From: Mycobacterium sp. EPa45
Lineage (GTDB): Bacteria; Actinomycetota; Actinomycetes; Mycobacteriales; Mycobacteriaceae
DNA length: 64,000 nucleotides
Direction of reading: 5' to 3'
Assembly (NCBI RefSeq): GCF_001021385.1
Contig: NZ_CP011773.1
Location: 6,076,001 to 6,140,000 of the forward strand
Notes under the pieces: model-generated
The model's input: the letters and a program-made list of their open reading frames with translations, nothing else
Database searches by the model: none
What the model was told of the DNA's origin: nothing
Position numbers and translations under genes: made by a program
Part shown: positions 9,611 through 36,956 of the stretch, piece by piece
Layout: every line of letters begins with the position of its first letter
Position numbering within the stretch: the stretch's first letter is position 1

Positions 9611-9624
9611 GTCAACCCCTTTCA

Positions 9625-10263: not shown

Positions 10264-10654
10264 GGTTCGAGCTTTCGTTGGTAGTGGTCAGTTCGGTGTG
10301 TTTCCGATGTTGCCGTTCACCGCCCACGTCACGCCGCCTTAGTCCGGCCACAAATCCCTCGAATGTGGACCTACGGCCGGGTGTGCGCGTCACCTCGGCT
10401 GCGGTCCGCCCCTGTGTCTCCGGATTGCCCCGGTAGCGACGGCAACTGCGGCGGTACGCTGCCCTATCACCCGAATAGTTACCACGAGTGGGTGCCACAA
10501 TCCGGAATTCGATACGCCACCATAATATTTGGCAGCTACTTCGGCCTCGCATGGGGATTTCGCCGAGATGACTTTGCGCACGGCCCGATCCAGATTACGG
10601 CGCGGGCGTGGCGAACTCGATCGCGCAGCTCGCGTCGGCCTAGGCCCCGCGGAT
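10264..10654. other. Intergenic region without a supported gene
   Basis: This 391-base stretch lies upstream of the HD-protein gene and downstream of the acyltransferase gene, both on the minus strand. It is locally less GC-rich around 10505-10535 (GATACGCCACCATAATATTT), which could hold a minus-strand promoter. The open frames crossing it have no recognisable product and atypical composition. No strong hairpin or direct repeat was seen. Confidence 0.5.
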
Positions 10655-11596: not shown

Positions 11597-11649
11597 GTCG
11601 GCGGAGTACCCGCGCTATGGGGCGCGTCACACTCGTCGGAAGGCGTCGG

Positions 11650-14217: not shown

Positions 14218-14338
14218 CGCTGATCGGCCGGCCACTCACGATCAAGCCCGCCCCGTGGCCCAGGGGTAGGGCAGGATTGCAGAAGGGTACGGGCCCGCGC
14301 CGGAACCCGCCGCGCGGTCCCAGAACAGGAGGGCGTTC

Positions 14339-15868: not shown

Positions 15869-16457
15869 GGTGTGGATCTCGGCCCAGGTGCCGCAGGATT
15901 CGGTCCAGGTCACCTGCGCCGTCAACCGGTTCGATGGCCGGGTCGAACGGCACGGCGTCAAGCAGACGCACCTCACCGTCGGGCACCGCAAGCACCAATG
16001 GCATTGCCGCGGTGAGTACGTCAGCGGGTAACGCGTAGTCGACCCCGAGTGAGGCGGCGACGTCCCAGCCGTGCACGACGTAGTCCACAAAGTGGAAGCC
16101 CATGGCGATGGAGCCGGGAAAGAGTGCGTTGTCGCCGAATTCGGGCAGGGTGAACAGAGCGTCGTCGATCCCGGCTTGGGAGAAGGCGTCGAGGACGTCG
16201 TGGGCGGCTTCGGCGTAGGTGTGCGCGGGGTCGTGCCGAACGTCGGCGATGACGGACTCGACGCGCCAGTTGCCGAGGTCACCACCGTGGCCTCGGGCCG
16301 CCGCGGCGAATCCACGATGCTGGACGGTCATGTGCGCAAGGAGGTCGGTGAGGTCCCAGCCCGCGCAGGGGGTCGGGCGGGGCAGGTCGGAGGGTTGAAC
16401 CGTATTGACGAGGTCGACCGTTGCGAGCACGGCGACGCGGTGTTCATTAATAGGCAT
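15786..16457 (-). CDS. TIGR03086-type metal-binding protein (DinB/mycothiol-dependent fold)
   Basis: The 223-residue protein matches the mycothiol-dependent maleylpyruvate isomerase-like group. The N-terminal helix has CAGWDLTDLLAHMTVQHRGF, giving one His, and HFVDYVVHGWDVAASLG gives the further metal-binding His pair of the DinB four-helix fold. The last 25 residues (AVSAATYQGPC onward) run antisense over the phospholipase gene and look unlike the family, so the fold may end near residue 198. ATG 16457 lies inside a 33-base palindrome, so the divergent MarR protein probably represses it. A mycothiol-linked detoxification role is inference. Confidence 0.8.
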   Translation of the reverse strand: MPINEHRVAVLATVDLVNTVQPSDLPRPTPCAGWDLTDLLAHMTVQHRGFAAAARGHGGDLGNWRVESVIADVRHDPAHTYAEAAHDVLDAFSQAGIDDALFTLPEFGDNALFPGSIAMGFHFVDYVVHGWDVAASLGVDYALPADVLTAAMPLVLAVPDGEVRLLDAVPFDPAIEPVDGAGDLDRILRHLGRDPHLTNPAVSAATYQGPCAAAATSPPTPRA

Positions 16458-16482
16458 ATGCGTATGATATGCACATGCCTAT
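16450..16482. promoter_or_regulatory. 33-bp palindrome, probable MarR operator
   Basis: The arms ATAGGCATATGC (16450-16461) and GCACATGCCTAT (16471-16482) belong to a palindrome centred at 16466 in which 14 of 16 base pairs are complementary. An extra half-site ATGCCTAT occurs at 16492-16499. It covers the start codon of the minus-strand DinB-fold gene and sits 27 bases before the MarR start, an ideal autoregulatory position. Confidence 0.7.
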
Positions 16483-16508
16483 CGTAGAGCAATGCCTATG
16501 ATGGCGCG

Positions 16509-16955
16509 GTGGCGGACGATTCCCCGCGCCAGGACCTCGCGGCGATGCTTGCCCCACTGCTGCGGGAGCTGATCGCGGCAGAGGAGCCTGTCCTGGCCGC
16601 GCACAACGTGTCCATGTGGGGCTATGTGGTGCTGGTGGCGCTCGACGGCTGGTCGGTGCGCACCCAGGCCGCACTCGCAGCGGCGATCGGCGCCGACAAG
16701 ACCCGCATCATCCGGGACCTCGACGAACTGCAGCAGCGCGGGCTGATCGAACGGACCCCCGATCCCGACGACCGCCGGGCGCGGGTGCTCGCGATCACCG
16801 AAGCCGGCCGCGCCCTGAAGAACGCGGTCCAGACGGAGATCCAGCGCGGGGAGGAGCGCTGGCTGGGAGAGCTCGATCCGGAGGAGCGAGCTACGTTCCT
16901 GCGGGTACTCGGCCGGTGGTCCGCCCGTGGGAGGCGCTGGACCGGTCGTCAGTAG
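16509..16955 (+). CDS. MarR family transcriptional regulator
   Basis: The 148-residue protein has the winged-helix MarR layout: LSVRTQAALAAAIGADKTRIIRDLDELQQRGLIERTPDPDDRRARVLAITEAGRAL (about 50-106) includes the recognition helix and the wing with the D-x-R-R-x-R signature. The flanking helices provide dimerisation. The start is GTG 16509; no in-frame ATG is nearby. It is divergent from the DinB-fold gene across a 33-base palindrome and is followed, 37 bases later, by the acyl-ACP thioesterase and FAD oxidoreductase genes, which it may also control. Confidence 0.93.
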   Translation: MADDSPRQDLAAMLAPLLRELIAAEEPVLAAHNVSMWGYVVLVALDGWSVRTQAALAAAIGADKTRIIRDLDELQQRGLIERTPDPDDRRARVLAITEAGRALKNAVQTEIQRGEERWLGELDPEERATFLRVLGRWSARGRRWTGRQ

Positions 16956-16992
16956 TGTTGGCGTCTGTAGGAGCTGCCGGACGGAGTCGCCG

Positions 16993-17763
16993 ATGAGATC
17001 CACCGCTGCGGTCGACGTGAGCACACCGCTTCGCGAACTCCCGGCGGATGGGTACGTCTATTCCACGGCATGGAAGATGTCGACCAGCGACATCGATCGT
17101 CACCAGCAGTTGCGGCTCGACAGCGTTGCGCGCTACATCCAGGAGGTCGGCGCCGAGCAACTGATCGACGCCGACTTCGCACATGTGCATCCGCACTGGA
17201 TCGTGCAGCGCACCGTCATCGACGTTCTGACGCCGATGACATGGCCGACAGACATCACCTTCCATCGATGGTGTTCGGCGCTGTCCCTGCGTTGGTGCAC
17301 GATGCGTGTCCGCCTGGACAGTCCAGACGGCGGCCGCATCGAGACCGAGGGCTTCTGGATCAACATGAACAAGGAGACGCTCACCCCCTCGTTGATGGAC
17401 GAAGAGTTCTTCAACAAACTGGCGACCACCACCGACGAACACCGCCTGAAATGGCGCGCTTGGTTGCCCGGCGCAGTCTCACCGGACGCGCAGGCCCTGC
17501 CATTTGCTCTGCGCGACACCGATATTGACATCTTCAATCACGTGACCAACACCGCGTACTGGCACGCCATCCACGAAATCACCGCTCGCTACCCGCACAT
17601 CGCATCGGCACCGTACCGGGCCGTGGTGGAGTACCGGCGACCGATTGCACTCGACGACAACGTGACTATTCGCCACCAGGCCGACGGGGACCTCGTCCGC
17701 TGCTGGTTCTGCGTCGGCGACGACGTCCACGCGGCAGGATTGGTGACACGACTTGAGCGCTGA
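16993..17763 (+). CDS. Acyl-[acyl-carrier-protein] thioesterase family protein
   Basis: The 256-residue protein is a double hotdog. The first half has MSTSDIDRHQQLRLDSVARYIQEVG, and the second repeats DTDIDIFNHVTNTAYWHAIHE, the Asn-His pair typical of acyl-ACP thioesterases of the FatA/FatB-like mycobacterial group. It would release a fatty acyl chain from ACP. ATG 16993 follows the MarR stop by 37 bases. Its last bases overlap the FAD oxidoreductase start, so the two are coupled. Its location opposite a PKS operon without a terminal thioesterase domain makes an off-loading role conceivable, but that is inference. Confidence 0.87.
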   Translation: MRSTAAVDVSTPLRELPADGYVYSTAWKMSTSDIDRHQQLRLDSVARYIQEVGAEQLIDADFAHVHPHWIVQRTVIDVLTPMTWPTDITFHRWCSALSLRWCTMRVRLDSPDGGRIETEGFWINMNKETLTPSLMDEEFFNKLATTTDEHRLKWRAWLPGAVSPDAQALPFALRDTDIDIFNHVTNTAYWHAIHEITARYPHIASAPYRAVVEYRRPIALDDNVTIRHQADGDLVRCWFCVGDDVHAAGLVTRLER

Positions 17764-19180
17764 ACAGACTCTGCAAGCCGACTACCTCGTCATCGGTGCC
17801 GGCGCGGTCGGGATGGCTTTCGCCGACACGATCGCGACCGAGAGCGACGCCACCGTCGTCATCGTCGACCGCGCCGAATCGCCCGGAGGTCACTGGACAA
17901 CGGCCTACCCCTTCGTGCGGTTGCACCAGCCCGCCTCCTACTACGGGGTGAACTCCCGCGACCTGGGCTCAGGCATGATCGAGGACAGCGGTGACAACGC
18001 CGGACTGTACGAGCTCGCCAGTCTCGACGAAATCCGTTGCTACTACGACACGGTGATGCGCGATCTGACGGGCAGCCAGCGCGTTCGGCATTTTCCCTTG
18101 AGCCAATATCACGGCGACGGGACGTTCACTACGGCGTCCGGCGAGCGTATTGCCGTCGACACCGCCCGCCGTGTCGTCGACACCACGCATTCCAAGGTGA
18201 TCGTGCCCTCGATGCGGCCGCCGAATTTCGGCGTCGACCCGGGCGTGGACTGCGTCCCGCCAAACGCGCTGCCTCAGAGTGCGCCCGGCCACGAGCGTTT
18301 CGTGGTCATCGGGGGCGGCAAGACCGGGATGGACAGCTGTCTGTGGTTGTTGCGCAATGGTATTGACCCCGAGCGGGTGACCTGGATCGTGCCTCGCGAG
18401 TCGTGGTTGCTCGACCGCGCGTATGTCCAGCCGGGCGCGGAGTTCGCCGACCGGGTCAAGCTGGCCTTCGCGGCCCGACTGGAGGCAATTGCTGCCGCAG
18501 ACAGCATCGACGACCTGTTCGCCCGGCTCGAGAGCTCTGGATCGTTGTTGCGTCTGCATGACGATGTCGAGCCGACCATGTATCGGTGCGCGACCATCAC
18601 GCAGGCCGAGGCCGAGCAGCTTCGCCGGATCACCGACGTCGTGCGGATGGGTCACGTGCGCACGCTCAGCACCTCCAGTGCGGTTCTCGATCTCGGTGAG
18701 CTTGCCACCGACAAGTCCACACTGTGGATCGATTGCGCTGCTGAGGGTTTGGGGCTTGGGCCGACGAGCACGATTTTCTCCGGGGCAACGTTGACTCCGC
18801 AGTGTGTGCGCGCCTGCCAGCAGGTCTTCAGTGCCGCCTTCATCGCTCACGTGGAACTCACCTATGACGATGACGCCACCAAAAACGCGCTGTGCGAACC
18901 GATTCACCTGCCCGGCGAGCCCCTTGACTGGCTCACCATGAGCGAGATCGAATACCGCAATCAGATCACCTGGTTCGCCGAGCCCGAGCTCATGGAGTGG
19001 CTGCACTCCTCACGGCTCAACGCAATCCGCGCGATGATGGCGCCGGTGATGGAGCGCCCGCGCGTTCGACAGCGGGTGTTCGATGCCATCGCCGGGCAGT
19101 TGCGCGCGGCGAACGACAAGCTGGCGGATCTGCTCGCGGCGCAGAGTGAAGCTCACGCGGCGGCGGGCTCCTCACCGTAG
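17753..19180 (+). CDS. FAD/NAD(P)-binding oxidoreductase
   Basis: The 475-residue flavoprotein has an N-terminal FAD fold, DYLVIGAGAVGMAFADTIA, with the ribose-binding acidic residue in VVIVDRAESPGGHW, and a second dinucleotide site RFVVIGGGKTGMDSCLWLL (about 180-198) for NAD(P)H. The Baeyer-Villiger fingerprint is not evident, so it is best described as a flavin-dependent monooxygenase-like oxidoreductase of unknown substrate. It starts at TTG 17753, inside the last codons of the thioesterase gene, so translation is coupled. It converges with a 28-base overlap on the antiporter at the end of the PKS operon. Confidence 0.85.
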   Translation: MSAEQTLQADYLVIGAGAVGMAFADTIATESDATVVIVDRAESPGGHWTTAYPFVRLHQPASYYGVNSRDLGSGMIEDSGDNAGLYELASLDEIRCYYDTVMRDLTGSQRVRHFPLSQYHGDGTFTTASGERIAVDTARRVVDTTHSKVIVPSMRPPNFGVDPGVDCVPPNALPQSAPGHERFVVIGGGKTGMDSCLWLLRNGIDPERVTWIVPRESWLLDRAYVQPGAEFADRVKLAFAARLEAIAAADSIDDLFARLESSGSLLRLHDDVEPTMYRCATITQAEAEQLRRITDVVRMGHVRTLSTSSAVLDLGELATDKSTLWIDCAAEGLGLGPTSTIFSGATLTPQCVRACQQVFSAAFIAHVELTYDDDATKNALCEPIHLPGEPLDWLTMSEIEYRNQITWFAEPELMEWLHSSRLNAIRAMMAPVMERPRVRQRVFDAIAGQLRAANDKLADLLAAQSEAHAAAGSSP

Positions 19181-20499
19181 GGCTCCTCCCCCGCGGGCCC
19201 GAATCGCGACCCGGATCTCGCCAGGCGACGTTCGAACACTCGCTGCAGTGGGGTGGCGACGAAAGTGGTGATGATCGTCATCACTGCCAGGATCGTGTAG
19301 AGCTTGCCCGAAATGAGTCCGGCTTCGAAGCCGATGTTGAGCAGGATGAGTTCCATCAAGCCGCGGGCATTGGCGAGTGCTCCCATCGATCCGGCTTCGT
19401 ACCAACTCATCCCCTGCCATCGCGCGGCCAGCCCGACGGCACCGAACTTCGCGACGAACGACACGACGAGAACAATGCCCGCCATGAGTAAGGTCGGTCC
19501 GTCGAAGATCAAATTCAGCTGAGTGTTCAGTCCGGAGTAGATGAAGAATGCGGGCAGTAGCAGATAGGCCACCAATGGCTCGAACCGCTCGCGGACCGCA
19601 TCGAGCAACTCACCGCGAGGCATGACCGCACCGGCCACGAAAGCACCGAAGACGGAATAGATCCCGACCAGATCAGTGAACCAGCTTGCGGTGAGCACGA
19701 CGAGCAGGATGATGCTCGTATGCGCGATCGGTAAGCCACCGGTGCGCTCGACGTGGGCGCGGGGTGGGTTCCACGTCTCCAGTCGCGCCAGCAGTGGGCG
19801 GCCCACATAGATCATGAACAGGAGGTAGGCCAGCCCTCCTCCGATGGCCAGAATCGCTCCGGACGCATGTCCTTTGGACGTCGCCACCACCGTTGCCAGC
19901 AGTACCCATGAGCATGCGTCGTCAATAGCGGCACAGGACAACGCCATGGTTCCCAGCCGGGTCTCGAGCAGCCCGGAGTCGTAGACGATCCAGGCCAGCA
20001 TCGGGAAGGCGGTGATGGCGACCGCTGCCGCCACGAAAAGACCGCCCTGCCAATGCACCACCTTGTCGGTGAAGTAGCCGCCGAGGCTCACCATCAGCCA
20101 GCCCAAGACGCCACCGAGGATCAGGGGTACGCCGATGCCGGTGGCCGCGGTGGCACCGGCTTGGCGCATGTGGGCGCCGAGGATGTTCAACTGGAACGAA
20201 GAACCCACCAGGAACATGTAGAGCACGAGGCCGAGCTGGCCGACGACATAGATGACCGTGAGGTTGGGGTGCACGATCGATTCGGCACCGATCGTGAGTT
20301 TTGCGGGGAAGAGCCAGTGTTGAGCGGCCGGCCAAATCCAGCCCAAAACCGAAGGGCCGAGCAGGAACCCCGCGACCATGATGGCGACGACCTGCACCTG
20401 AGCCAGCCGGCGGAACAGCGGCCACAGCAGTCGGTAGGTCAGCAGGATGACCGCGATCTGCAGGAAGAAGTGGTAGGCGATCGACAGCATCGACGGCAT
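19153..20499 (-). CDS. Cation/proton antiporter (CPA2/KefB-like)
   Basis: The 448-residue integral membrane protein has about 12 hydrophobic segments starting with MLSIAYHFFLQIAVILLTYRLLW. The CPA signature region has GTMALSCAAIDDACSWVLLA, with the adjacent Asp pair used for Na+ or K+/H+ exchange, and the pore region has VGIYSVFGAFVAGAVMPRG. No C-terminal TrkA-N domain is present; it ends in a short charged tail. ATG 20499 begins four bases after the ABC permease stop with GGGG upstream, so it is the last gene of the five-gene halogenase/PKS/ABC operon. It may support export by managing the proton or cation gradient. Confidence 0.88.
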   Translation of the reverse strand: MPSMLSIAYHFFLQIAVILLTYRLLWPLFRRLAQVQVVAIMVAGFLLGPSVLGWIWPAAQHWLFPAKLTIGAESIVHPNLTVIYVVGQLGLVLYMFLVGSSFQLNILGAHMRQAGATAATGIGVPLILGGVLGWLMVSLGGYFTDKVVHWQGGLFVAAAVAITAFPMLAWIVYDSGLLETRLGTMALSCAAIDDACSWVLLATVVATSKGHASGAILAIGGGLAYLLFMIYVGRPLLARLETWNPPRAHVERTGGLPIAHTSIILLVVLTASWFTDLVGIYSVFGAFVAGAVMPRGELLDAVRERFEPLVAYLLLPAFFIYSGLNTQLNLIFDGPTLLMAGIVLVVSFVAKFGAVGLAARWQGMSWYEAGSMGALANARGLMELILLNIGFEAGLISGKLYTILAVMTIITTFVATPLQRVFERRLARSGSRFGPAGEEPYGEEPAAA

Positions 20500-20503
20500 C
20501 GGT

Positions 20504-21361
20504 TCAGCCCCTATCCGACCATCGAAAAACATACAAGCAGGCCATCAGTCCGCCGATGCTCCAGGCGGCCAGCACCAGGAAGATGCGGCCATGCTCCCAG
20601 CTGCCCGCCGGCTCGAAGACGACCATCTGCGCGGGCAGCAGCACCGAGCGAAATCCCTGCGCCATCCACTTGACCGGGAAGATCGACCCGACGATCAGCA
20701 TCCAGGTGGGAAGCGCCATGAGTGGCACGTAGGTGCCCGAGACGAACTGCAGGCCGACGGCCGGGCCATTGGTCATGACCGCCGCCGAGACCGCATTGCT
20801 GGCGAAATTGCTCACGAAGATGCCCAACAGCGAACAGCTGATGATGCCCAAGACGAACACCCAGGCCAACGTGAACCACGAATACACGTCGGTGGGCAGC
20901 CGAAGCTGAAAAACCAGCACACCCAACAGCAGCAGGACGACAGCCTCGGCCAGGCTGGCGATCGCGACCAACATGATCTTGCCGATGAAGTACGACGATG
21001 CGGTCGCCGGGGTTCCGCGCAACCGCCGCAGCGCGCCGGTCTCCCGGTCGGCTGCGATGCCGATACCCAGGTTGATGAACGACGTCGACAGGATGCCGTA
21101 GGCCAGCATGCTGGCCGCGATCACCGCACCGGTGCTGGTCTGGGTGCCAGGCAGTTTCGCCGAGAAGATGGACCCGAGAAGCAGACAGATGATCGCGGGC
21201 ATCGAGAAGGTCAGCACGACTTGCTCAGGGCGTCGATAGAACATCTTGAGCTCGGGAAGTACTCGTGACACCCCGATGCGCACCGCCGAGGGCAGTGCGG
21301 TCGGGGCGTCGCCGCGGTGCCTGGGCTGAGCCGCGTCGCGCTGCGTGGAATCGACGGCCAT
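20504..21361 (-). CDS. ABC-2 type transporter permease (DrrB-like)
   Basis: The 285-residue permease has a cytoplasmic N terminus, then six membrane segments (VVLTFSMPAIICLLLGS, MLAYGILSTSFINLG, IASLAEAVVLLLLGVLVF, LAWVFVLGIISCSLLG, ALPTWMLIVGSIFP, LVLAAWSIGGLMACLYVF) and the ABC-2 coupling region ADRETGALRRLRGTPA. ATG 21361 overlaps the stop of the ATPase gene (ATGA). A longer open frame upstream is an out-of-frame shadow of the ATPase. With the ATPase it forms a daunorubicin-type exporter, here presumably for the product of the adjoining PKS. Confidence 0.9.
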   Translation of the reverse strand: MAVDSTQRDAAQPRHRGDAPTALPSAVRIGVSRVLPELKMFYRRPEQVVLTFSMPAIICLLLGSIFSAKLPGTQTSTGAVIAASMLAYGILSTSFINLGIGIAADRETGALRRLRGTPATASSYFIGKIMLVAIASLAEAVVLLLLGVLVFQLRLPTDVYSWFTLAWVFVLGIISCSLLGIFVSNFASNAVSAAVMTNGPAVGLQFVSGTYVPLMALPTWMLIVGSIFPVKWMAQGFRSVLLPAQMVVFEPAGSWEHGRIFLVLAAWSIGGLMACLYVFRWSDRG

Positions 21362-22218
21362 CACGCCATCCCGATCAGTTGCAGATAGGCGTCTTCCAGC
21401 GTTGGCCTGCTGACGGTCAATTGGGTCAGTTCCGTGCCGTCCGCGGACAGCCGCCTGATGAGTTCGGTCGGGTGGTCGGTGTGTTCGACGCGCAACTGAT
21501 CGCCGTCCATCCACTGCACTGTCGCAGCGGTGTTGACGTGTGCCGTCAGCCGTGCGGGCGTGTCCACCGCGGCTACCCGTCCGTCGGCGATGACGGCGAC
21601 ACGGTCCGCCAGAGCTGCAGCCTCCTCCAGGTAATGGGTTGTCAAGAGGATGGTGGTGCCGTCGCCGGCCAGGAGCCTGATGAGGTCCCAGAACTGGCGC
21701 CGCGCTTCGGGATCGAATCCCGTGGTCGGCTCGTCGAGGAAGAGAAGCTCTGGCTCGGCGATGATGCCCAGCGCAACGTCGAGCCGCCGCCGTTGGCCGC
21801 CGGACAGGTTCCTGACCCGGGACCCGGAGCTGGCAGCCAACCCGACGAGCTCCAGCAGCTGCTCGGGTACTCGGGACCGCCCCTCGCCGTAGCACTTCGC
21901 GAACATGTGCACGGTCTCAGACACCGTGAGGACGCCGAAGTCGCTGGTTTCCTGCAGCACGATGCCGATCCGGGCGCGCCAATCACGCCCGGCGTCCGCG
22001 GGATCTTCGCCGAGGACGCTCACTCGCCCGGCGTCGCGTTTCCGATGGCCTTCGAGAATCTCGATCGTTGTCGACTTGCCCGCCCCGTTGGGGCCGAGGA
22101 TCGCGAAGATCTCGCCGTAGCCGACGTCGAGGTCGAGGTCCTGTACGGCCGGCACCCGTCCGTAAGCCTTCGACAATCCGCGCACCTGCACCGCCGGTCG
22201 GCTCACGGTCGGCATCAC
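21361..22218 (-). CDS. ABC transporter ATP-binding protein (DrrA-like)
   Basis: The 285-residue ATPase has Walker A LGPNGAGKSTTIEIL (about 41-55), Q-loop VLQETSDFG, signature LSGGQRRRLDVALG, Walker B LLFLDEPTTGFDPEARRQFW and the H-loop LLTTHYLEEAAALAD. The C-terminal extension (VDTPARLTAHVNTAATVQWMDG) is typical of DrrA-type drug exporters. Its start overlaps the PKS stop by four bases and its stop overlaps the permease start, so it is locked into the operon. Confidence 0.93.
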   Translation of the reverse strand: MMPTVSRPAVQVRGLSKAYGRVPAVQDLDLDVGYGEIFAILGPNGAGKSTTIEILEGHRKRDAGRVSVLGEDPADAGRDWRARIGIVLQETSDFGVLTVSETVHMFAKCYGEGRSRVPEQLLELVGLAASSGSRVRNLSGGQRRRLDVALGIIAEPELLFLDEPTTGFDPEARRQFWDLIRLLAGDGTTILLTTHYLEEAAALADRVAVIADGRVAAVDTPARLTAHVNTAATVQWMDGDQLRVEHTDHPTELIRRLSADGTELTQLTVSRPTLEDAYLQLIGMA

Positions 22219-25200
22219 GAGTGAGCCTCTCCCGCATCCGAATCCGAGCGGGCCTCCAGTTGCGCGAGCAGCTCCTGCAATTCAACATCGGACAGTTCAT
22301 CCATGAGTCGGTCCAGCTCGTCGTCGACATCCGCGGTGTGATCGGACGGCGATACTTCTGGCGTCAACGGAGCCGCGCCGCCGTGGATGAAATGCAGCTC
22401 GGTGAGCACCCGGTCGGCCAATGAGTTGACGCTGACGCCTCGGAGTATCTCGAGGACGGGTAGGTCGATCGAGAAGGTCATGTTGATTCGCACCCGGAAT
22501 TCCATCGCCATCATGGAGTCCAAGCCGATGTCGTCGAGCTGATCGTCCGGCTCGAAATCATCAATGCCGCAGTCGAAGACGGTAGCCACGATCTGCCGCA
22601 ACTGATCGGCGATGACGGCTGGCCGGTCAGCCTCGGGAGTCGCCGCGAGCAGCATGAGAACCGAGCCGTCCGCATCGCCGTCCACGGTGACCGCCTCGGA
22701 CGTGCCGAGTTCGGCGAACATCATCGGTAACCGGGCGCCGAGACCGGCTTGGCGCGCCCGGCCCCAGTCGGCGCTGATGGCGACGACGTTCGGCGGCTGT
22801 TGATTGATCACCCGATCGAGGATCAGCGCGCCGACGGCGGGCGTGATGAGCTCGATTCCGCGCTTGGCATAAAGCTTTTCGAGGTTGAGCTCCTCTACCA
22901 TTCCCACCGACCACGGTCCCCAGCCGATGGTGAGCGCCGGCAGACCCTGCGCTCGGCGATAGTGCGCGAACGCGTCGAGGAAGGCGTTCGCGGCCGCGTA
23001 ATTGCCCTGCCCCGGTGAGGCGATGGTCGATCCGGCGGAGCCGAACATCACGAAGAATTCCAGGTCGTGGTCTTTGAGGGCGTCGTGCAGTACCCGGGTA
23101 CCGGTGACCTTGGGTGCCATCACCGCCGCGAAGTCGGCTTCGTCGATGTTGACCAGCAGTTGGTCATTGACTGTTCCCGCGGCGTGGACGATCCCGCGTA
23201 TCGGCCTGCCGCCACGGAGGGCGTGGTCCCGCAGCCAATCGGCCACCTGCTCGCGGTCGGCGATGTCTACGCTGGCCGTGGTGATCTGGACGCCGAGCCG
23301 TTCGATCGCGCCGATGGTGCTGACAGTCGCGTAGTGGGGATCGTTTTCGGCGAGGCTGGGCCAGCGGTCTCGGGATGGGATGACGCTGCGGCTCAGCAGT
23401 GTGATGTGCCGCGCTCCACGCTCGGCGAGGTAGGTGGCGACCACCCGGCCCAGCGCTCCGGCACCGCCGGTGACGACGTAAGTCGCGTCGCGGCTGAGCT
23501 TGGTGGGGAATGGTCGGGTCAGCTGATCGCACGGTCGCAGACGGGGCACGAACGTCACCCGGCCGCGGATCGCGACCTGGTCTTCGGCCTCCCCGTCGAG
23601 GAGGTGTTCGCAAATCCGCGTGGCGGTTTGGGCGCGGTCGTCAGCGGTGTCGACGTCGATCAGCCCACCCCAGTGCTCCGGCAGCTCTTGATGGCCGATG
23701 ACGCGGCCGAGGCCCCAGATGGCGGCCTGGTCGACTCCGCACAGTTCGGTTCCCGGTGCGGGTTGCGCATTTCCGGTGACCAGGTAGAGGCGGGTCTTCA
23801 CGGCGGAGTCTTGTGCGGCGAGCGCTTTGGCCAGTCGAAGGGCTGGGAGCACGCCGAGCTGTTGTTGTTCGTCGGTGGAGCAGGATTCGGTGATGTTCAG
23901 CGGCCAGCAGTCCACGATCCCGTCGATATCGTCGTGCTCGGCGAGCAATGCACTGAAGTCGGTATCGGTGTCCTCAGAGCGAACCTCGTGAACGCGATGG
24001 CCGCGGCTGCGGATCTCGTCGGCGAGCGAAGCACCCACACCGATGTCATCGAGGAGAACCAGCCACGATTTCGGCTCACCGCCTGCAGTGTCCGGACCTT
24101 GTACATCGTCGTCGAGCGGGCGCCAGTGAACGTGAATGAGCCCCTTGTCAATACGTTCGGGCGACATGCGCGACGACGCGCTCAGCGACTGAACCGCGAA
24201 GCCGGCGATGACGACGAGCGGTCTCTCGGCCGTGCCCATGATGGTGATGTCGCATTCGACCCGCTCCTTGGTCACCGACACCACACGAACGTGAACCTTC
24301 ATGTCCGCTTCGGGTGGACCGTAGACGGCACAGTGGCGTATGTGGGTCGGCAGGAACGGTTCCTCGTTCTGCTCCTGACCCAAAAACGGTGCGCCGAATA
24401 GCGCCTGGAATGCTCCGTCGACGAGGGCCGGATGGAAGCGGAACCCCGGTATCTCGTCGGCGATCGACGCGGGGATCGTGATGTCGGCGACGGCCCAGTC
24501 CTCACCCGCTGTGACGCCGCGGATGGTTCGGAACGCGTCACCATAATCGAATCCGATGGACTGGGTCCGGAGGTAGAAGTCCTCACCGTCGATCCAGACG
24601 ATCGGCTCCGAACTGTCCGCTGCGGCCGGCGGTTCGGGCGCAGGCGGGCGGATATTGAGTTCGGCCGTCGCAGTGATGGCCCACTTTGTTTCACCGTCGG
24701 CCGTTGCCGTGAAGGCTGCGAACTCCAAAGTGCCGTCGTCCTCGTTGAGCGTGGTCCGCAGAATGGGGTCACAGGTGTCGTCGAGGATCACGGCGCGGTG
24801 CAGGACGACGTTGTCCACGCTGAAATCCGACCCGTAAACAGCATTGGCCACCGCCATGCCCATCTCCAGGTACACCGCTCCGGGCACCACCACACTTCCC
24901 TGCACGCGGTGGTCGGTGAGGAACGCGTTGAAGACGGCGCTCAGTTCCGCCTCCCAGGTGAGATGAAGTCCACTGACCTGTTGACCCAGCAGGGGGTGCA
25001 CCGGGTGGTAGAACAGGCTTTCGGTCGCCTCCCGGGTCTCATTCCAGAACCGTTTCGTCTGCCACGGGTAGGACGGCAGCTTCAGGAGACGGCCACCCTC
25101 CCCGCTCCGCAGTGCGTCCCACGCCACGTCACGGCCGCTGCAATGCAGCATCCCAACGCAATTGAGTAGGGAGCGGACATCGTCGGTGTCGCGTCGCTGG

Positions 25201-27710: not shown

Positions 27711-27713
27711 CGG

Positions 27714-29483
27714 TCAACTCGACTGCAGAGCAGGTGACGTCGTGACGATCCAGTCACTGCTTATCGGGTCGCTGCCCTGCTCCCGTCGGTAGGCCGACCG
27801 CAGCTCGTGCAGCAGCGGATCGCGCTGCCATTCCTGGACCTGCCGCATCACCTCGTCGTCGCCGAACATCGTCGACTTTTCGGCAAGCACCGTCTCGACC
27901 AGCTGCCCGGCTAACCGCTTCAGCAAGCGCGCGTTGCTGTCGAACTGTTCGTTGAAGTCCTCGCTCGGATGCATCATCGCGGTGTGCAGTGAGACCATGA
28001 AGTTCAACGGCGCGTAGAGGTCGACGAACGGCACAGTGGGGGTTGTGGTTTCGATGGCGGCCCATTCACGGAAGAATCTCTGGACACGGTTACTCAATGC
28101 GATGACGCCGTCGAGATGCGGGACGAAACCGGGATCGTCCGCCAGGCTCACGAAGCGCCCGTTCATGTAGAGCAGCCCGATGAAGCCCCAATAAAACGCG
28201 ACGTCCCAGATGATCTTGGCCGACATCACGTTCGGCACGCCCATCAGTGAGTACTGGTCCTGGTAGACCGCGAGCCACATTTCGGTGAGTGAGCGAAACA
28301 GCGTGTCGCTGATCTGCGCCCGCGCTAGGACATCCTCGCCGTTGAGTTCCCGGACGATCATGTCGGTGATCAAGCCGTTGCCGATCGCGACGAGATCCAG
28401 GCCCGAGGAGTACAGCGGATCGAGGAAGATTCCCGCATCACCCGTCAGACACCAGCGGGCACCGCCGTCATACACCTTCGCCGCGCCGTGGCTGTATTTC
28501 TTCATGACGCGAAAGTCCTGGATTTGCTCGGCGTGCTCGGCCAGGACCGCGGCACACTGCGGCTCGTGATCCCGCAGCCACGCGGTGGCCTTGGCAAGGG
28601 TGTTGAGCGAGTCGAAAGGGTGATAGGCCGGGTCGGCAACGATACCGACGCTGGTGGCCCCAGATGCCAGCCGAATCAGCCAGACCCAATAGCCTTCGCC
28701 CATCAGGTGATTGGTGGAAAGTGCACGATCGCCCTCTACCAGCCTGCCCTGCCAGTCCGGGTCGTCGCTCCAGCGGCCGACGTCGATCTCTGTCGCGACA
28801 CGGAACCACACGGCGTTGCAATGGTGTTCGTTGGCTTGCCTGATACCCAAGTGCCGGGGTAGCAACCGATTTCGCCCCGAAGCGTCGACCACCCACCGCG
28901 CCGTGGTCTCGGTGACCGCTTGACCATCCTGGACCGAAATCGTGTGGGGACTGTTTCCGTCCGTCACCTGCACCGATCGCACCCGGCCTCGCGTGATCTC
29001 GACGCCCTGCGCAACGCAGCGCCGGCTGAGCTCGTTCTCCAGTCTCCCGCGGTCGATCTGGTAGGTCACCTGCGGAACGAAGGATGAGCTGCCGAGCTCC
29101 ATCCGTTGTGTGATGTCGGTGTTGCGGCCCACGGAGAAGAACATCCGCAAACCCATCTTGCGAATCTGCGCGGTGCTCAAGTGATCGCCCAGCCCCAGCC
29201 GATCGCGGAGATAGTGTGCCGACACCTCGACGGTCGACTCGCCCACCGTGTGGGTGATCTCCGACACCGGGTGGACGTTCGGGTCGATCACCTGCACTCG
29301 GGTGGCGGGCCGCTCCCGGCGAAGTTCCAACGCCAAGGTCAGCGCGGCTGCCCCGCCTCCGACGATGGTGACATCGTGGTCGGCAGGCGACTCATCCGGG
29401 CGCGACATGCGCGACCGTAGGCGCTGTGCAAGGGCTTCCCGCCGTTCGCGACTCAGCTGCGACACTTGCGCCCGCGTGTCCAC
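27714..29483 (-). CDS. FAD-dependent halogenase-like / monooxygenase
   Basis: The 589-residue flavoprotein has the FAD motif VTIVGGGAAALTLALELRRE (about 38-57), a VGEST element at 80-84, the conserved IRKMGLRMFF segment with Lys109 as candidate catalytic lysine, WVWLI (266-270) at the site of the halogenase WxWxIP motif, and the second FAD block CLTGDAGIFLDPLYSSGLDL. The WxWxI element argues against an ordinary hydroxylase, but the terminal Pro is Arg here, so halogenation is not certain. GTG 29483 follows an excellent AGGAGG site. Residues 6-25 (QVSQLSRERREALAQRLRSR) form a basic helix resembling PKS/NRPS linker helices. First gene of the five-gene operon, with a divergent topoisomerase upstream. 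Confidence 0.83.
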   Translation of the reverse strand: MDTRAQVSQLSRERREALAQRLRSRMSRPDESPADHDVTIVGGGAAALTLALELRRERPATRVQVIDPNVHPVSEITHTVGESTVEVSAHYLRDRLGLGDHLSTAQIRKMGLRMFFSVGRNTDITQRMELGSSSFVPQVTYQIDRGRLENELSRRCVAQGVEITRGRVRSVQVTDGNSPHTISVQDGQAVTETTARWVVDASGRNRLLPRHLGIRQANEHHCNAVWFRVATEIDVGRWSDDPDWQGRLVEGDRALSTNHLMGEGYWVWLIRLASGATSVGIVADPAYHPFDSLNTLAKATAWLRDHEPQCAAVLAEHAEQIQDFRVMKKYSHGAAKVYDGGARWCLTGDAGIFLDPLYSSGLDLVAIGNGLITDMIVRELNGEDVLARAQISDTLFRSLTEMWLAVYQDQYSLMGVPNVMSAKIIWDVAFYWGFIGLLYMNGRFVSLADDPGFVPHLDGVIALSNRVQRFFREWAAIETTTPTVPFVDLYAPLNFMVSLHTAMMHPSEDFNEQFDSNARLLKRLAGQLVETVLAEKSTMFGDDEVMRQVQEWQRDPLLHELRSAYRREQGSDPISSDWIVTTSPALQSS

Positions 29484-29824
29484 CGCTTGACCTCCTCGGA
29501 ATCGTGCCGACGGGCACCCGCGAATGTGGCGGGTCCGCATCGCGACGCTCATTCGAGCGAATCACAGCAACGGCACCCCGAGCATGTCGAGAGTGATTAC
29601 CGATTGCTGACGTCTGTGTCGCGTCACGCCGGCCCGCAAACTGAAAGCACCACGCGGAGCTGGCTATCCGATGGCAAATTATGGTTACAGCTACTTCTCG
29701 TGTTGATCGCGAAAGCCGGAGATGCGCTTCGGCTGTATCCCCGGCCACTTCGGCGGCTACGCGGAAAAGTCGGACCAGCCGCTTACCATTTTCACGGCGA
29801 CCCAACCCGATGGAAGGACGAGAC
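29484..29824. promoter_or_regulatory. Divergent promoter region between PKS operon and topoisomerase pair
   Basis: The 341 bases separate the halogenase-like gene (minus) from the gyrB-like gene (plus). The stretch is less GC-rich near 29595-29705 (including ATGGCAAATTATGGTTACAG), consistent with promoters in both directions. The AGGAGG site for the minus gene is at 29490-29495 in plus coordinates and GGAAGGA at 29812-29818 serves the plus gene. No long palindrome was found by eye, and no gene is supported here. Confidence 0.5.
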
Positions 29825-31858
29825 GTGAGTTACACCGCCGCTGACATCACCGAGCTCGACGATGTGCAGCACACACGCCTGCGGCCGGCGGTCAACCTCG
29901 GTCTGGACATCCTGAACACCGCGCTGCGCGAACTGATCGACAACGCCGTGGAGGAAGTGGCAGACCCCAGCCACGGCGGGTCAACCGTCACGATCACGCT
30001 GCACGCCGACGGATCGGTGAGCGTCGCTGACGACGGGCGTGGACTGCCCGTCGACACCGACGCCGCGACCGGAAAGAACGGAATCGTCAAGACGCTGGGC
30101 ACCGCCCGTGCGGGCGGCAAGTTCTCCGCGCACGTCGACGCAACCAGCACCGGAGCCGGCCTCAACGGAATCGGCGCTGCGGCGGCCGTCTTCATCTCGG
30201 CGCGTACCGACGTCACGGTCCGTCGCGCCGGAAAGACGTATGTGCAGAGCTTCGGCCGCGGCTACCCCGGCGTGTTCGAGGGCAACACCTTCGACCCGAA
30301 CGCGCCGTTCACCCGGTCCGACACCCAGAAACTCCGCGGCACCGGCAACCGGAAGCCCGACGCTCAGGGCACCGAAGTGCGGATCCTGTTCGACCCGGTT
30401 GTTGTGCCGGACTCCAGCGTCGACATCGGCGAGGTGCTCCTCCGCGCGCATGCAGCGGCACGGATGTCCCCCGGAGTCCACCTGATCGTCGTCGACGAAG
30501 GCTGGCCCGGCGACTCGGTTCCGCCGGCGCTGCTCGCTCCTTTCCACGGTCCCTGGGGTACCGAGACCCTGTTAGATCTCATGTGCACCGCCGCCGACAC
30601 TCCGGCACCCGTCGTACGGGCGGTTGTGGAGGGTCGCGGCGAGTACACCACCGGCCGCGGCCCTACACCGTTCCGGTGGTCGCTGACAGCCGGTCCGGCC
30701 GAGCCGGCGACGGTGGCCGCGTTCTGCAACACCGTGCGCACCCCGGGCGGTGGCTCACACCTCACCGCGGCGGTGAAGGGTCTGTCCGAAGCGCTGGCCG
30801 ACCGCGCCTCCCGCATCCGCGACCTGGGCCTGGCAAAGGGCGAAGAAGGCCCGGAGCCACAGGATTTCGCGGCGGTCACCGCACTGGCGGTCGACACCCG
30901 CGCCCCCGATGTGTCATGGGACTCCCAGGCCAAGACGGCGGTGTCGTCACGGTCGCTGAACGTGGCAATGGCCCCCGACGTGACGCGCAGCGTCACGATC
31001 TGGGCGGCCAACCCCGCCAACGGTGAAGCCGTGTCGCTGTGGACGAAGCTGGCACTCGAGTACGCCAGGGCACGGCGGAGCGCCGAAGGCGCCAAGGCAC
31101 GCTCACGTGCAGCGTCAAAAGCCAAGGGTCTCGGCACGAACCTTTCCCTGCCCCCGAAACTCCTGCCCAGCAGGGAGACCGGGCGGGGCTCCGGCGCAGA
31201 ACTGTTCCTGTGCGAGGGCGACTCGGCGCTTGGCACGATCAAAGCCGCACGCGACGCGACCTTCCAGGCCGCTTTCCCGCTGAAAGGCAAGCCGCCCAAC
31301 GTCTATGGGTTTGCCTTGAGCAAGGCACGGGCCAAGGACGAGTTCGATTCGATCGAACGCATTCTGGGCTGCGGGGTTCGGGACAAGTGCGATCCCGAGC
31401 AGTGCCGCTATGACCGGATCTTGTTCGCCTCCGATGCCGACCCCGACGGCGGCAACATCAACTCCAGCCTGATCTCGATGTTCCTGGACTTCTATCGGCC
31501 GCTGGTCGAAGCCGGGATGGTCTATGTGACGCTGCCCCCGTTGTTCGTGGTGAAGAACGGTGACGAGCGGATCTACTGTCAGGACGAGTCCGAGCGTGAC
31601 GCCGCCGTCGCCCAGTTGAAGGCGGCCTCGAAGAAGCGGGTGGAGGTGCAGCGCAACAAGGGTCTCGGTGAGATGGATGCCGACGACTTCTGGAATACCG
31701 TGTTGGATCCGCAGCGGCGCACGGTGATTCGTGTTCATCCCGATGACGACGAAAAGAAGCTGCACCACACGTTGTTCGGCGGGCCGCCTGAGGGCCGGCG
31801 CACGTGGATGGCCGATGTGGCCGCCCGTGTCGACACCTCTGCGCTGGACCTCGACTAG
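29825..31858 (+). CDS. GyrB/ParE-like subunit of a second type II topoisomerase (TopoNM-like B)
   Basis: The 677-residue protein has a GHKL ATPase N-terminal part: RELIDNAVEEV with the catalytic Glu, VADDGRGLPV, and GAGLNGIGAAAA in place of the canonical GLHGVG. A transducer and a TOPRIM region follow: LFLCEGDSALG, PLKGKPPNVYG and FASDADPDGGNI for Mg2+ binding. At the PLRGKILNVE segment of GyrB the Glu is Tyr. The region is diverged from the housekeeping GyrB, matching the additional topoisomerase described in M. smegmatis (TopoNM, positive supercoiling and decatenation reported). GTG 29825 follows GGAAGGA; upstream starts lack a site. It is followed nine bases later by the A subunit. Confidence 0.88.
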   Translation: MSYTAADITELDDVQHTRLRPAVNLGLDILNTALRELIDNAVEEVADPSHGGSTVTITLHADGSVSVADDGRGLPVDTDAATGKNGIVKTLGTARAGGKFSAHVDATSTGAGLNGIGAAAAVFISARTDVTVRRAGKTYVQSFGRGYPGVFEGNTFDPNAPFTRSDTQKLRGTGNRKPDAQGTEVRILFDPVVVPDSSVDIGEVLLRAHAAARMSPGVHLIVVDEGWPGDSVPPALLAPFHGPWGTETLLDLMCTAADTPAPVVRAVVEGRGEYTTGRGPTPFRWSLTAGPAEPATVAAFCNTVRTPGGGSHLTAAVKGLSEALADRASRIRDLGLAKGEEGPEPQDFAAVTALAVDTRAPDVSWDSQAKTAVSSRSLNVAMAPDVTRSVTIWAANPANGEAVSLWTKLALEYARARRSAEGAKARSRAASKAKGLGTNLSLPPKLLPSRETGRGSGAELFLCEGDSALGTIKAARDATFQAAFPLKGKPPNVYGFALSKARAKDEFDSIERILGCGVRDKCDPEQCRYDRILFASDADPDGGNINSSLISMFLDFYRPLVEAGMVYVTLPPLFVVKNGDERIYCQDESERDAAVAQLKAASKKRVEVQRNKGLGEMDADDFWNTVLDPQRRTVIRVHPDDDEKKLHHTLFGGPPEGRRTWMADVAARVDTSALDLD

Positions 31859-31867
31859 GAGTATCAC

Positions 31868-34006
31868 GTGACTGCCACCTTGGACATTCCGGAGCAGAAC
31901 GCCGACCTGGTGCTCGACCAGAGTGCCGATGACTACTGGAATCACTACCAGCTGACGTTCGCGCTGTACAGCGTCAGCGACCGCGCCATCCCATCGGCAT
32001 TCGACGGGCTGAAGCCGGGCCAGCGACGGCTGCTGTACCAGATGCACGACTCGAGGCTGCTGCCCGGCAACAAGCCGCAGAAATCTTCGAAGGTCTGCTC
32101 GGCAGTCACCGGTAATCTGCACCCCCACGGCGGCGCGTCGATGTACGGCGCCGCCGCGCTGATGGCTGCCGAGTTCCAGCGCGTGAAAGTCATTGACGGG
32201 CAAGGCGCGTTTCCCCGCATCCAAGGTGACATCCCCGCTGCCGACCGGTACACCGAGATGCGGTTGTCTGCACCCGGGGCGGCGCTGACCGCTGAACTCG
32301 ACGACCACGCGGTCCCGATGGTCCCGACATTCGACGGTGAATGGACCGAGCCGACGATGCTGCCGGCCCAGTGGCCGGTGTTGCTGTGCAACGGCGCCGT
32401 GGGTATCGCCGAGGGGTGGGCCACCAAGGTCCCGGCGCACAATCCCCGCGAGGTCATGGCCGCCTGCCGGGCGCTGCTGAAGACGCCGAACATGACTGAC
32501 GACAGGCTGGTGAAACTCATTCCCGGACCCGATTGGGGATGTGGGGCGACGGTGGTCGGCACCGCCGGACTGCGGGAGTACATCACCACCGGCCGGGGTG
32601 CCTTCACCGTGCGCGGCACGGTCAGCGTTGACGGCAAGAACTGCATCATCACCGAGCTGCCGCCCGGCGTCGCGAGTAACACTGTGCAGGACAGGATTCG
32701 GGCACTGGTCGAATCGGGCGAGATGTCCGGGGTGGCTGACATGTCGGACCTCACCGACCGCCGCAATGGGCTGCGGATCGTGGTGACCGCCAAACGCGGC
32801 CACAGCGCCGACCAGATCCGCGAGCAGCTTCTGGCACTGACTCCGCTGGAGTCGACATTCGCCGCCAGCCTGGTCGCCCTTGACGAGAACCGGGTGCCAC
32901 GCTGGTGGTCGGTGCGCGAACTGATATCCGCTTTCCTGCATCTGCGGGACTCTGTGGTGCTGCACCGCAGCGAGTATCGGCTGGAGAAGGTCACCGCGCG
33001 CCGGCACCTGGTGGCCGGTCTGATGACGATCCACCTCGACATCGACGCCGCGGTTGCAGTGATCCGGGGCTCGGATACCGTCGACGAGGCGCGACAGGGA
33101 TTGCAGGAGCGGTTCGCGATCGACGCTGTCCAAGCTGATTACGTTCTGGCACTGCAACTTCGCCGGCTGACCAAGCTCGACGTCATCGAACTGCGGGCCG
33201 AAGCGGAGAAGCTCGACGCCGAGTTCGCCGCGTTGAACGAGCTGGTATCCAATCCCGAGGCGCGCCGAAAGGTGATCGACGAGGAGCTCGTCGAGACCGC
33301 GAAACTGTTCAAGGGCCCCGAGTTCGATCGACGGACCGTGCTGGACGCCGAGGCCACGCCAGTGACGTCTGGTTCCGATGAGGACGGGCCGCGTGAGCGA
33401 AAGGTGAACACCGCCTGGCGGCTGGACGATCGCGGGGTGTTCTCCGACAGTCACGGCGAGCTGCTCACCTCCGGGCTCGGTTGGGCGGTATGGAGCGACG
33501 GGCGAGTGAAGTTCACCACCGGAAGCGGGCTGCCGTACAAGATCCGTGACATTCCGGTGGCGCCGGACATCACCGGGCTGCTGAGCTCGGGCGTGCTGCC
33601 GGCCGCGTACCACCTGGCGCTGGTGACTCGGCGCGGCAAGATTCTGCGGATCGACCCGGCCGCGGTGAATCCGCAGGGTGCCGCCGGCAACGGGGTCGCC
33701 GGGATCAAGCTCGCCGGTGAGGGTGATGAGGTGATCGCCGCACTGCCGGTGTCGTGCGGTAACGGCGAGGCGATCTTGTCGGTCGCTGAAAAGAGTTGGA
33801 AGGTAACCGAAGTCGCCGATATACCGGTCAAGGGCCGCGGGGGCGCCGGTGTCGGGTTCCATCCGTTCGTCAAGGGCGAGGATGCCGTGCTGGCGGCGTC
33901 GATCTCCGTGAATGGTTACGTGCGCGGCAAGAGGTCCGTGCGCGCGGAGAGCCGTGCGAAGGCGTCGATCAAGGGTTCCGGGGCAGACGTGACACCGGCG
34001 GGCTAG
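31868..34006 (+). CDS. GyrA/ParC-like subunit of a second type II topoisomerase (TopoNM-like A)
   Basis: The 712-residue protein has the GyrA breakage-reunion domain: IPSAFDGLKPGQRRLLYQM (41-59), HPHGGASMYG (85-94) and AADRYTEMRL with catalytic Tyr128. Residues 89 and 94, Asp in mycobacterial GyrA, are both Gly. The Ile-wedge and long coiled-coil follow (RLTKLDVIELRAEAEKLDAEFAAL about 433-456). The C-terminal part has degenerate beta-blades (RGKILRIDPAAV, VLAASISVNGYVRGKRSVRAE) rather than a full GyrA pinwheel with GyrA box, and total length is about 125 residues short of GyrA. The start is GTG 31868, nine bases after the B-subunit stop, so they form one operon. Confidence 0.88.
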   Translation: MTATLDIPEQNADLVLDQSADDYWNHYQLTFALYSVSDRAIPSAFDGLKPGQRRLLYQMHDSRLLPGNKPQKSSKVCSAVTGNLHPHGGASMYGAAALMAAEFQRVKVIDGQGAFPRIQGDIPAADRYTEMRLSAPGAALTAELDDHAVPMVPTFDGEWTEPTMLPAQWPVLLCNGAVGIAEGWATKVPAHNPREVMAACRALLKTPNMTDDRLVKLIPGPDWGCGATVVGTAGLREYITTGRGAFTVRGTVSVDGKNCIITELPPGVASNTVQDRIRALVESGEMSGVADMSDLTDRRNGLRIVVTAKRGHSADQIREQLLALTPLESTFAASLVALDENRVPRWWSVRELISAFLHLRDSVVLHRSEYRLEKVTARRHLVAGLMTIHLDIDAAVAVIRGSDTVDEARQGLQERFAIDAVQADYVLALQLRRLTKLDVIELRAEAEKLDAEFAALNELVSNPEARRKVIDEELVETAKLFKGPEFDRRTVLDAEATPVTSGSDEDGPRERKVNTAWRLDDRGVFSDSHGELLTSGLGWAVWSDGRVKFTTGSGLPYKIRDIPVAPDITGLLSSGVLPAAYHLALVTRRGKILRIDPAAVNPQGAAGNGVAGIKLAGEGDEVIAALPVSCGNGEAILSVAEKSWKVTEVADIPVKGRGGAGVGFHPFVKGEDAVLAASISVNGYVRGKRSVRAESRAKASIKGSGADVTPAG

Positions 34007-34992: not shown

Positions 34993-35100
34993 GAACCTCG
35001 ATCGTAGTACGACCCTGACAGCGGCTGCCGCTGGTGCTCTCCGATGTGGAACTGCTGCGGCGCCCCTTCGCCGGCGACGCCTCGCATGCAGGCCGGCGGC

Positions 35101-36489: not shown

Positions 36490-36542
36490 GAAGCGACGTT
36501 ATCGCGGACGCGACTTTCTGGCAACGACCGTTGTCAGTTTGG

Positions 36543-36956
36543 TCAGTTGATGATCTCACCTCGTTCATCAGCGCGGAGCTCAGCGAGCCGGTCCCTCCAC
36601 GTCTGTAGAGCCTCCGGTGTCAACCTCGTCCAGTCGGTGACTTCACGCACGACCCGAAGCGGTGCGCGGCTGCGAAACGAACGCGTGGGATTGCCCGGAA
36701 ACTTCTTGTCGGTGACGTTCGGATCATTCTCGAACGATCCTGTGGGTTCGACTTCGTAGACATGCGGGGTGGACCCGTCCAGCGCCGCCAGCTCTGCCGC
36801 CAGTCCAGCCCCGTCGCGCAGCGCGGTGAAGTAGATGTGATTCATGACGACCTCCGGACGATAGTTCGAATTGAAACCGGGCCGCAGGAGGTCCCCGGGG
36901 CGCAGCTCTGCCTTCGTACCGTGGAAGAACGGCCCCTCGTCCAGCACTTCACCCAT
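36543..36956 (-). CDS. arr: NAD(+)--rifampin ADP-ribosyltransferase
   Basis: The 137-residue enzyme shows the Arr family pattern: FFHGTKAELRPGDLLRPG with the NAD-binding His, then FNSNYRPEVVMNHIYFTAL with the Tyr block, and the strongly conserved ENDPNVTDKKFPGNPTRSFRSR with the catalytic Asp. It inactivates rifamycins by ADP-ribosylating a hydroxyl of the ansa chain. ATG 36956 was chosen, preceded by GGGG at suitable spacing; an in-frame TTG at 36992 would add 12 residues. Arr homologues are intrinsic to fast-growing mycobacteria such as M. smegmatis, so no transfer need be assumed. It is monocistronic. Confidence 0.95.
   Translation of the reverse strand: MGEVLDEGPFFHGTKAELRPGDLLRPGFNSNYRPEVVMNHIYFTALRDGAGLAAELAALDGSTPHVYEVEPTGSFENDPNVTDKKFPGNPTRSFRSRAPLRVVREVTDWTRLTPEALQTWRDRLAELRADERGEIIN

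Follow-up and report, generated by a model that had tools for sequence, protein, structure and literature searches.

The locus described here is an operon on the minus strand of a 64,000-nucleotide stretch of DNA from Mycobacterium sp. EPa45 (GCF_001021385.1, NZ_CP011773.1, positions 6,076,001 to 6,140,000 of the forward strand; hereafter the window), which encodes, in order from position 29483 to 19153, a halogenase-like flavoenzyme, a type I polyketide synthase (PKS), the ATPase and then the permease of an ABC exporter and a CPA2 antiporter. Described systems resemble it in part. The mycocerosic acid synthase (MAS) is likewise a single-protein mycobacterial type I PKS, but the PKS of the window has no enoylreductase and adjoins a halogenase-like gene and an ABC exporter. 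The halogenases PltM, CtcP, PltA, ChlB4, CmlS and Bmp2 have in common with the window's flavoenzyme the fold, an FAD motif, a lysine and the WxWxI and FxxPxxSxG motifs, although identity in structure alignments is just 13–22%. Halogenases are also found in glycopeptide antibiotic clusters. As here, these clusters include an ion or Na+/H+ antiporter gene (StaN, noc4/dbv35; excerpts of PMC11727664 and PMC8291499), although their products are made by non-ribosomal peptide synthetases and not by a PKS, and the likeness lies in the presence of an antiporter. Finally, an excerpt of PMC6804068 places type II topoisomerase genes (gyrB^R/parY^R) at the coumermycin and novobiocin biosynthetic clusters, and a topoisomerase pair is likewise adjacent here.

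We consider it fairly probable that the minus-strand genes form an orphan operon whose product is an exported and probably halogenated polyketide, that the antiporter is a needed partner in it and that the topoisomerase pair is a separate matter. The operon itself is real and conserved in mycobacteria, and probably makes and exports such a compound; from gene order, domain content, motifs, predicted fold, co-conservation and distribution we infer the iteration of the PKS, the halogenation, the export and the role of the antiporter. As a cluster it is an orphan of a known kind, and the fresh clue that it offers is an antiporter that is swapped but constant. Should the product prove to be a halogenated polyketide, it would be an overlooked mycobacterial natural product of an operon whose halogenase is carried by roughly one in four of the genomes sampled from the genus; the operon is described in none of the titles or abstract openings among the matches listed in our literature search.

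Layout of the operon and its surroundings

The operon genes are long open frames with strong Pfam and NCBIfam family matches, and their order recurs across many genomes, so they are not chance frames. They are given here first, followed by their neighbours.

27714..29483 (longest frame to 29552), minus strand: halogenase-like FAD enzyme (PF04820, CmlS model, fold, motifs)
22215..27710, minus strand: type I PKS, predicted KS-AT-DH-(psiKR)-KR-ACP (Pfam domains; KR-prefix and PF22953)
21361..22218, minus strand: ABC exporter ATPase, DrrA-like (TIGR01188 at 2.2e-71, below the model cut-off)
20504..21364, minus strand: ABC-2 permease, DrrB-like (PF01061; start set by the GTGA overlap)
19153..20499, minus strand: CPA2 cation/proton antiporter with a DD pair (PF00999 at 3.5e-50)
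29681..31858, plus strand: TopoN-type GyrB/ParE-like subunit, a neighbour outside the operon (Pfam/NCBIfam; distribution)
31868..34006, plus strand: TopoM-type GyrA/ParC-like subunit, a neighbour outside the operon (91% to a protein named TopoM)
17753..19180, plus strand: FAD oxidoreductase, a convergent neighbour (family match; retained in nearest kin only)
16927..17763, plus strand: acyl-ACP thioesterase-like protein, a convergent neighbour (PF01643 at 6.2e-19; retained in nearest kin only)

Read from the sequence, the halogenase stop codon occupies 27714–27716 and the PKS starts with a GTG at 27710, leaving a 3-base gap, while the PKS and the ABC ATPase overlap by the 4 bases GTGA at 22215–22218, as do the ATPase and the permease at 21361–21364. 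The permease stop ends at 20504 and the antiporter starts with an ATG either at 20499 (a 4-base gap) or at 20532 (an overlap); its end (19153) and that of the FAD oxidoreductase (19180) overlap tail to tail. The thioesterase-like gene and the FAD oxidoreductase converge on the operon, and the GyrB-like/GyrA-like pair is divergent from the halogenase. A first-pass annotation of the sequence had drawn the same picture, that is, a minus-strand chain with small gaps and GTGA overlaps, a topoisomerase pair divergent from its first gene and a thioesterase and an FAD oxidoreductase converging on it; frames, families, junctions and coordinates all bear this out.

The halogenase-like enzyme and the polyketide synthase

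The GTG at 29483 is favoured as the start of the halogenase-like gene because the resulting 589 residues are the commonest length among the 120 relatives listed. The protein matches the Pfam family PF04820 (Trp_halogenase) at 8.6e-13, above the Pfam cut-off, and the NCBIfam CmlS model at 1.6e-21, below its cut-off. Its predicted fold resembles PltM, CtcP and Bmp2, and in two fold comparisons ranks 1–18 and 1–45 are occupied by halogenases or 3nix. For the motifs, we used an alignment and tree of 76 rows, made up of the window and 75 loci with the best match from each, segments of up to 480 residues having been dropped. The FAD motif reads VGGGAA at residues 64–69 of the window's enzyme, and across the alignment this N-terminal GxGxxG-type motif takes the form xGGG in 72 of 76 and xGDG in 3 of 76 sequences, one sequence not being displayed. 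A candidate catalytic lysine, K132, is invariant in both of two alignments (25/25 and 76/76) and aligns with the KKxG lysine of PltA, ChlB4 and Mpy16.

WxWxIP and FxxPxxSxG are motifs of flavin-dependent halogenases. All 76 sequences have WxWxI, with the following proline in 2 of them and an arginine at that position in the window, and all 76 best matches have the second motif in the form FLDPLYS(S/P)G, its first phenylalanine being only nearly invariant once halogenase paralogs are included. For the role of the lysine in flavin-dependent halogenases we follow an excerpt of PMC12400496. The window's enzyme differs from the known halogenases in that arginine and in its C-terminal part, alignments to them stopping near residues 500–545 of 612.

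The enzyme is probably an FADH2-dependent halogenase, which would act on the polyketide chain or on a ring formed from it. It could instead be a flavin monooxygenase or oxidase, in which case the polyketide would carry no halogen. That is a serious alternative, if a somewhat unlikely one: the lysine, WxWxI and FxxPxxSxG are invariant in all 76 sequences, the Trp_halogenase match lies above its cut-off and the leading ranks of both fold comparisons fall to halogenases or 3nix. The conserved unit around the halogenase holds no flavin reductase; this, like a release enzyme for the PKS, would be supplied from elsewhere.

The PKS comprises KS-AT-DH-KR-ACP domains plus a KR-prefix part in the Pfam and NCBIfam scans, and the matches to that prefix and to PF22953 suggest a psiKR; the same scans gave no match to an enoylreductase or a thioesterase domain in the protein. 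It is a single KS-AT...ACP module, and the operon has no second PKS gene. The module would be used repeatedly and, because a ketoreductase (KR) and a dehydratase (DH) are present but no enoylreductase, would yield a partly reduced chain carrying hydroxyls and/or conjugated double bonds. At the AT specificity stretch the window has YHTH where the ATs of DEBS have YASH. We take this stretch to hold the specificity residues, which have two usual forms; YHTH matches neither, and therefore no extender is called. The DrrAB-type ABC pair would then export the product.

The best solved relative of the PKS is MAS, and several of its orthologs carry the name mycocerosic acid synthase, a name at odds with the lack of an enoylreductase. 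This kinship, together with an MMPL gene present in the Rhodococcus cluster described below, speaks for an operon that makes a structural envelope lipid, as do MAS and other mycobacterial PKSs, and not a diffusible compound. We hold this to be unlikely, given the missing enoylreductase, the absence of an acyl-AMP ligase, PapA and MmpL among the window's operon genes, the presence of a halogenase and a DrrAB-type exporter, and the restriction of the operon's halogenase to 41 of the 148 genus genomes sampled.

Conservation of the operon and the place of the antiporter

To the 80 named loci that carry the halogenase one on a Janthinobacterium plasmid (L144) was added, giving 81, of which 57, L144 included, are fully flanked, with at least 9 kb on each side of the halogenase (G and L numbers are our handles for genomes and loci). 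All 57 fully flanked loci have a CPA2 antiporter, 56 have the PKS, and the ABC ATPase and the permease occur in 54 each; the lone locus without a nearby PKS is L144, where a distant one lies further along. The corresponding counts are 5 for the topoisomerase pair, 1 for the FAD oxidoreductase and 0 for the thioesterase; the block that stays together consists of halogenase, PKS, ABC pair and antiporter. The thioesterase is present and converges as described, and can be refined to an acyl-ACP thioesterase-like protein, but neither it nor the FAD oxidoreductase is a member of the cluster on these counts (0/57 and 1/57). Of the nearest kin, G004 retains both genes and G093 the oxidoreductase alone.

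In the genus sample the 41 halogenase genomes include two, G007 and G010, in which the gene is in two pieces. In a scan of the phylum at E 1e-80 the halogenase turned up in 4 of 396 genomes, each one from the genus of the window, and a scan of the family found it in 7 of 201 genomes and 2 of 31 genera. Two contigs of metagenome-assembled genomes (MAGs), L068 (Ilumatobacteraceae) and L102 (Acidobacteria), carry the operon and cluster among the mycobacteria in the halogenase tree; they are probably mis-binned.

More distant kin are found outside the mycobacteria. The loci of Rhodococcus (L123), a Pseudonocardiaceae strain (L129) and Lentzea (L137) combine the halogenase and its own paralogs with DUF1702 genes and a close CPA2 antiporter; L123 and L129 also have a PKS. 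At the Nocardia locus (L138) there are a second halogenase and a DUF1702 gene, and an antiporter match is truncated by the edge; the 15.7 kb covered contain no PKS match. The Janthinobacterium plasmid carries, at 7820–23438, a phosphopantetheinyl transferase, an antiporter, a halogenase relative, an Asp/Asn hydroxylase-like gene, a hydrolase and a PKS that bears an AprA-like methyltransferase loading part, and in a Gloeothece plasmid no type I PKS is annotated within about 18 kb of the halogenase relative. From the Rhodococcus, Pseudonocardiaceae, Janthinobacterium and related loci it follows that antiporter, halogenase and one-protein PKS travel together beyond mycobacteria too.

L123, L129, L137 and L138 each have, near DUF1702 genes, two or three paralogs of the halogenase, and excerpts of PMC7692728 name DUF1702 in a figure legend as a protein of enediyne biosynthesis and give the domain order of enediyne PKSs as KR ahead of DH. 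An enediyne-type PKS is ruled out for the window, in which DH lies ahead of KR; the PKS of these other clusters, where one is seen, has scores similar to those of the window's, and in L123 DH likewise precedes KR. DUF1702 matched none of the 148 genus genomes, a scan in which the control likewise matched nowhere.

The antiporter has an IDD that aligns with the IDD of the solved Na+/H+ antiporter 4bwz, and the DD pair is kept by most of the 75 antiporters compared, some of which vary at the first position. Its Pfam family, PF00999, has only 5 matches in the strain's own genome. In the fully flanked loci an antiporter like that of the window lies downstream in 21 and upstream in 2, while in the other 34 a divergent one, 41–45% identical to the window's (30% in L144), lies upstream; the two forms were split by identity to the window's protein alone (at least 60% versus less), and the divergent ones may not be one subfamily. 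On a quick maximum-likelihood tree of the 76 halogenases, 74 rows of which could be labelled by antiporter, there are 6 changes of form, of which well supported branches force at least 3, with some long branches flagged as unsure. The antiporter is never missing in the loci judged, despite these changes of form. Because it has been swapped repeatedly yet not lost, it is probably needed by the operon, and this gives a concrete, testable clue to the action of the product.

Within the exported-polyketide reading, the antiporter would most likely serve ion or pH homeostasis against the product. A more specific version makes the product a membrane-active polyketide that bears a halogen and works as an ionophore or uncoupler, and the antiporter a self-protection device which repairs the resulting ion or pH imbalance. 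This is a long shot, but if true it would give the mycobacteria a class of halogenated ionophore to which an antiporter confers immunity.

The divergent topoisomerase pair

The plus-strand pair consists of a B subunit at 29681–31858 and an A subunit at 31868–34006. Alignments with close relatives begin between query residues 3 and 46, so that an ATG at codon 44 may be the true start of the B subunit. Over its full length the A subunit shares 91% identity with a protein that NCBI names 'topoisomerase subunit TopoM [Mycolicibacterium chitae]', which is a database name and not the M. smegmatis protein, and a separate gyrA match lies elsewhere in the genome (C1:8462, 36% identical over query residues 28–495). 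The window's genome thus has a second topoisomerase with adjacent B and A genes besides a separate gyrase, as with TopoNM. The 2005 work of Jain and Nagaraja is said to have described a positive supercoiling activity of TopoNM. We take MSMEG_0457 and MSMEG_0456 to be the TopoN and TopoM of M. smegmatis. A table excerpted from PMC12702967 lists them as topoisomerase IV subunit B and gyrase subunit A, respectively, while an excerpt of PMC3510509 presents TopoNM as a second type II topoisomerase, of an atypical kind, in M. smegmatis and credits it to Jain and Nagaraja. By sequence comparison the second topoisomerase looks like this already described mycobacterial enzyme, and the pair is assigned to the known TopoNM type; TopoNM of M. 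smegmatis is likewise a second type II topoisomerase beside gyrase, but here the pair is divergent beside a PKS operon, and the orthology rests on the named TopoM of Mycolicibacterium chitae.

In the A subunit GGASMYG aligns to GDSACYE of the solved topoisomerase IV chain 2xkj, a stretch that we take to be the quinolone site. This reading would be in keeping with the low inhibition of TopoNM by fluoroquinolones, put at 40-fold less than for gyrase in an excerpt of PMC9769811.

The first-pass annotation had gone further, proposing that the polyketide acts on a topoisomerase and that the extra enzyme is the resistant form, as in coumermycin producers. The exported, possibly halogenated polyketide of that proposal is upheld by the PKS operon, the halogenase-like enzyme and the exporter; the topoisomerase target is not. 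On the basis of its B subunit, and with G008 (a fragment) and G009 (in two pieces) included, the pair occurs in 59 of the 148 genus genomes: 26 have both pair and halogenase, 15 the halogenase alone, 33 the pair alone and 74 neither. The pair is therefore mostly without the operon (33/59) and commoner without the halogenase than with it, unlike the arrangement at the coumermycin and novobiocin clusters, and 15 of 41 halogenase genomes lack it. A pair that lacks the PKS operon in most relatives is the outcome that the first-pass annotation had itself named as speaking against its proposal. The genomes of 77 of the 80 named loci (all but L140–L142) were also searched, a set that includes MAGs and four non-mycobacteria (L123, L129, L137, L138) and overlaps with the genus sample; the pair was found in 45 and not in 32, some of which are incomplete or not mycobacteria. 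The pair also has neighbours of its own where the operon is missing, since in the close relatives G043 and G018, which have no halogenase match, the alpha/beta hydrolase and the 571-residue gene that flank it are the same.

Several points weigh against treating the two as separate. The pair is present in 26 of 41 halogenase genomes as against 33 of 107 others (Fisher odds ratio 3.9, p 6e-4, uncorrected for kinship), and in 16 genomes both lie on one contig, within 67 kb of each other in 12; by a rough reckoning this linkage exceeds chance. The other 4 one-contig genomes have them 0.66 to 4.3 Mb apart, and 10 genomes have them on different contigs. Among the pair-positive named genomes, halogenase positions were determined anew for 26 of 45, with both on one contig in 9 and within 47 kb in 8. 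The gap between pair and halogenase is 129, 204 and 276 bases in three genomes, the divergent adjacency of the window and its closest kin, and about 2.5 kb in two.

These points, and the GGASMYG stretch with the reported fluoroquinolone figure, are what a poison of type II topoisomerases with a self-resistant target would have in its favour. We nevertheless regard that account as very improbable and, although linkage exceeds chance, reject the pair as a resistance gene on its distribution: the 33 pair genomes without a halogenase, the 32 halogenase genomes without a pair, its separate neighbours and its prior description as an accessory enzyme type all argue the other way, and no domain found indicates a topoisomerase ligand. 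Gaps and intervening genes vary among genomes with both, and direct adjacency is limited to close kin, which makes it a clade feature, in a stretch of chromosome where the two are often found together. The linkage is better explained by such a common neighbourhood than by a drug paired with its resistant target. The pair is best read as TopoNM, an accessory mycobacterial enzyme with a distribution of its own, and dropping the topoisomerase idea spares effort on a wrong target.

Some further observations concern the pair and the rest of the window. A plasmid of M. intracellulare subsp. chimaera that is typed as mobilizable carries a TopoNM-type pair (L145, 8007–12179) with a B subunit 90% identical to the window's and no PKS gene annotated within 8 kb, which suggests that pairs of this type can move between species. 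G037, G087, G112 and G124 hold two TopoNM-type B genes, the second copy being only 75–79% identical in three of them (the G112 genome is 7% contaminated), and at G009:C1:5929655-5931762 the TopoN-type gene is broken into two overlapping frames. The 571-residue protein, encoded at 35044–36759 of the window and without a Pfam or NCBIfam match, has its gene near the topoisomerase pair in G004, G043, G018, G098, G012 and G085; in L110, L111 and L115 the gene lies no more than 10 kb from the halogenase. Short UvrA-like proteins serve as drug-resistance genes in some antibiotic producers, and a UvrA-like protein of 861 residues is encoded at 11650–14235 of the window.

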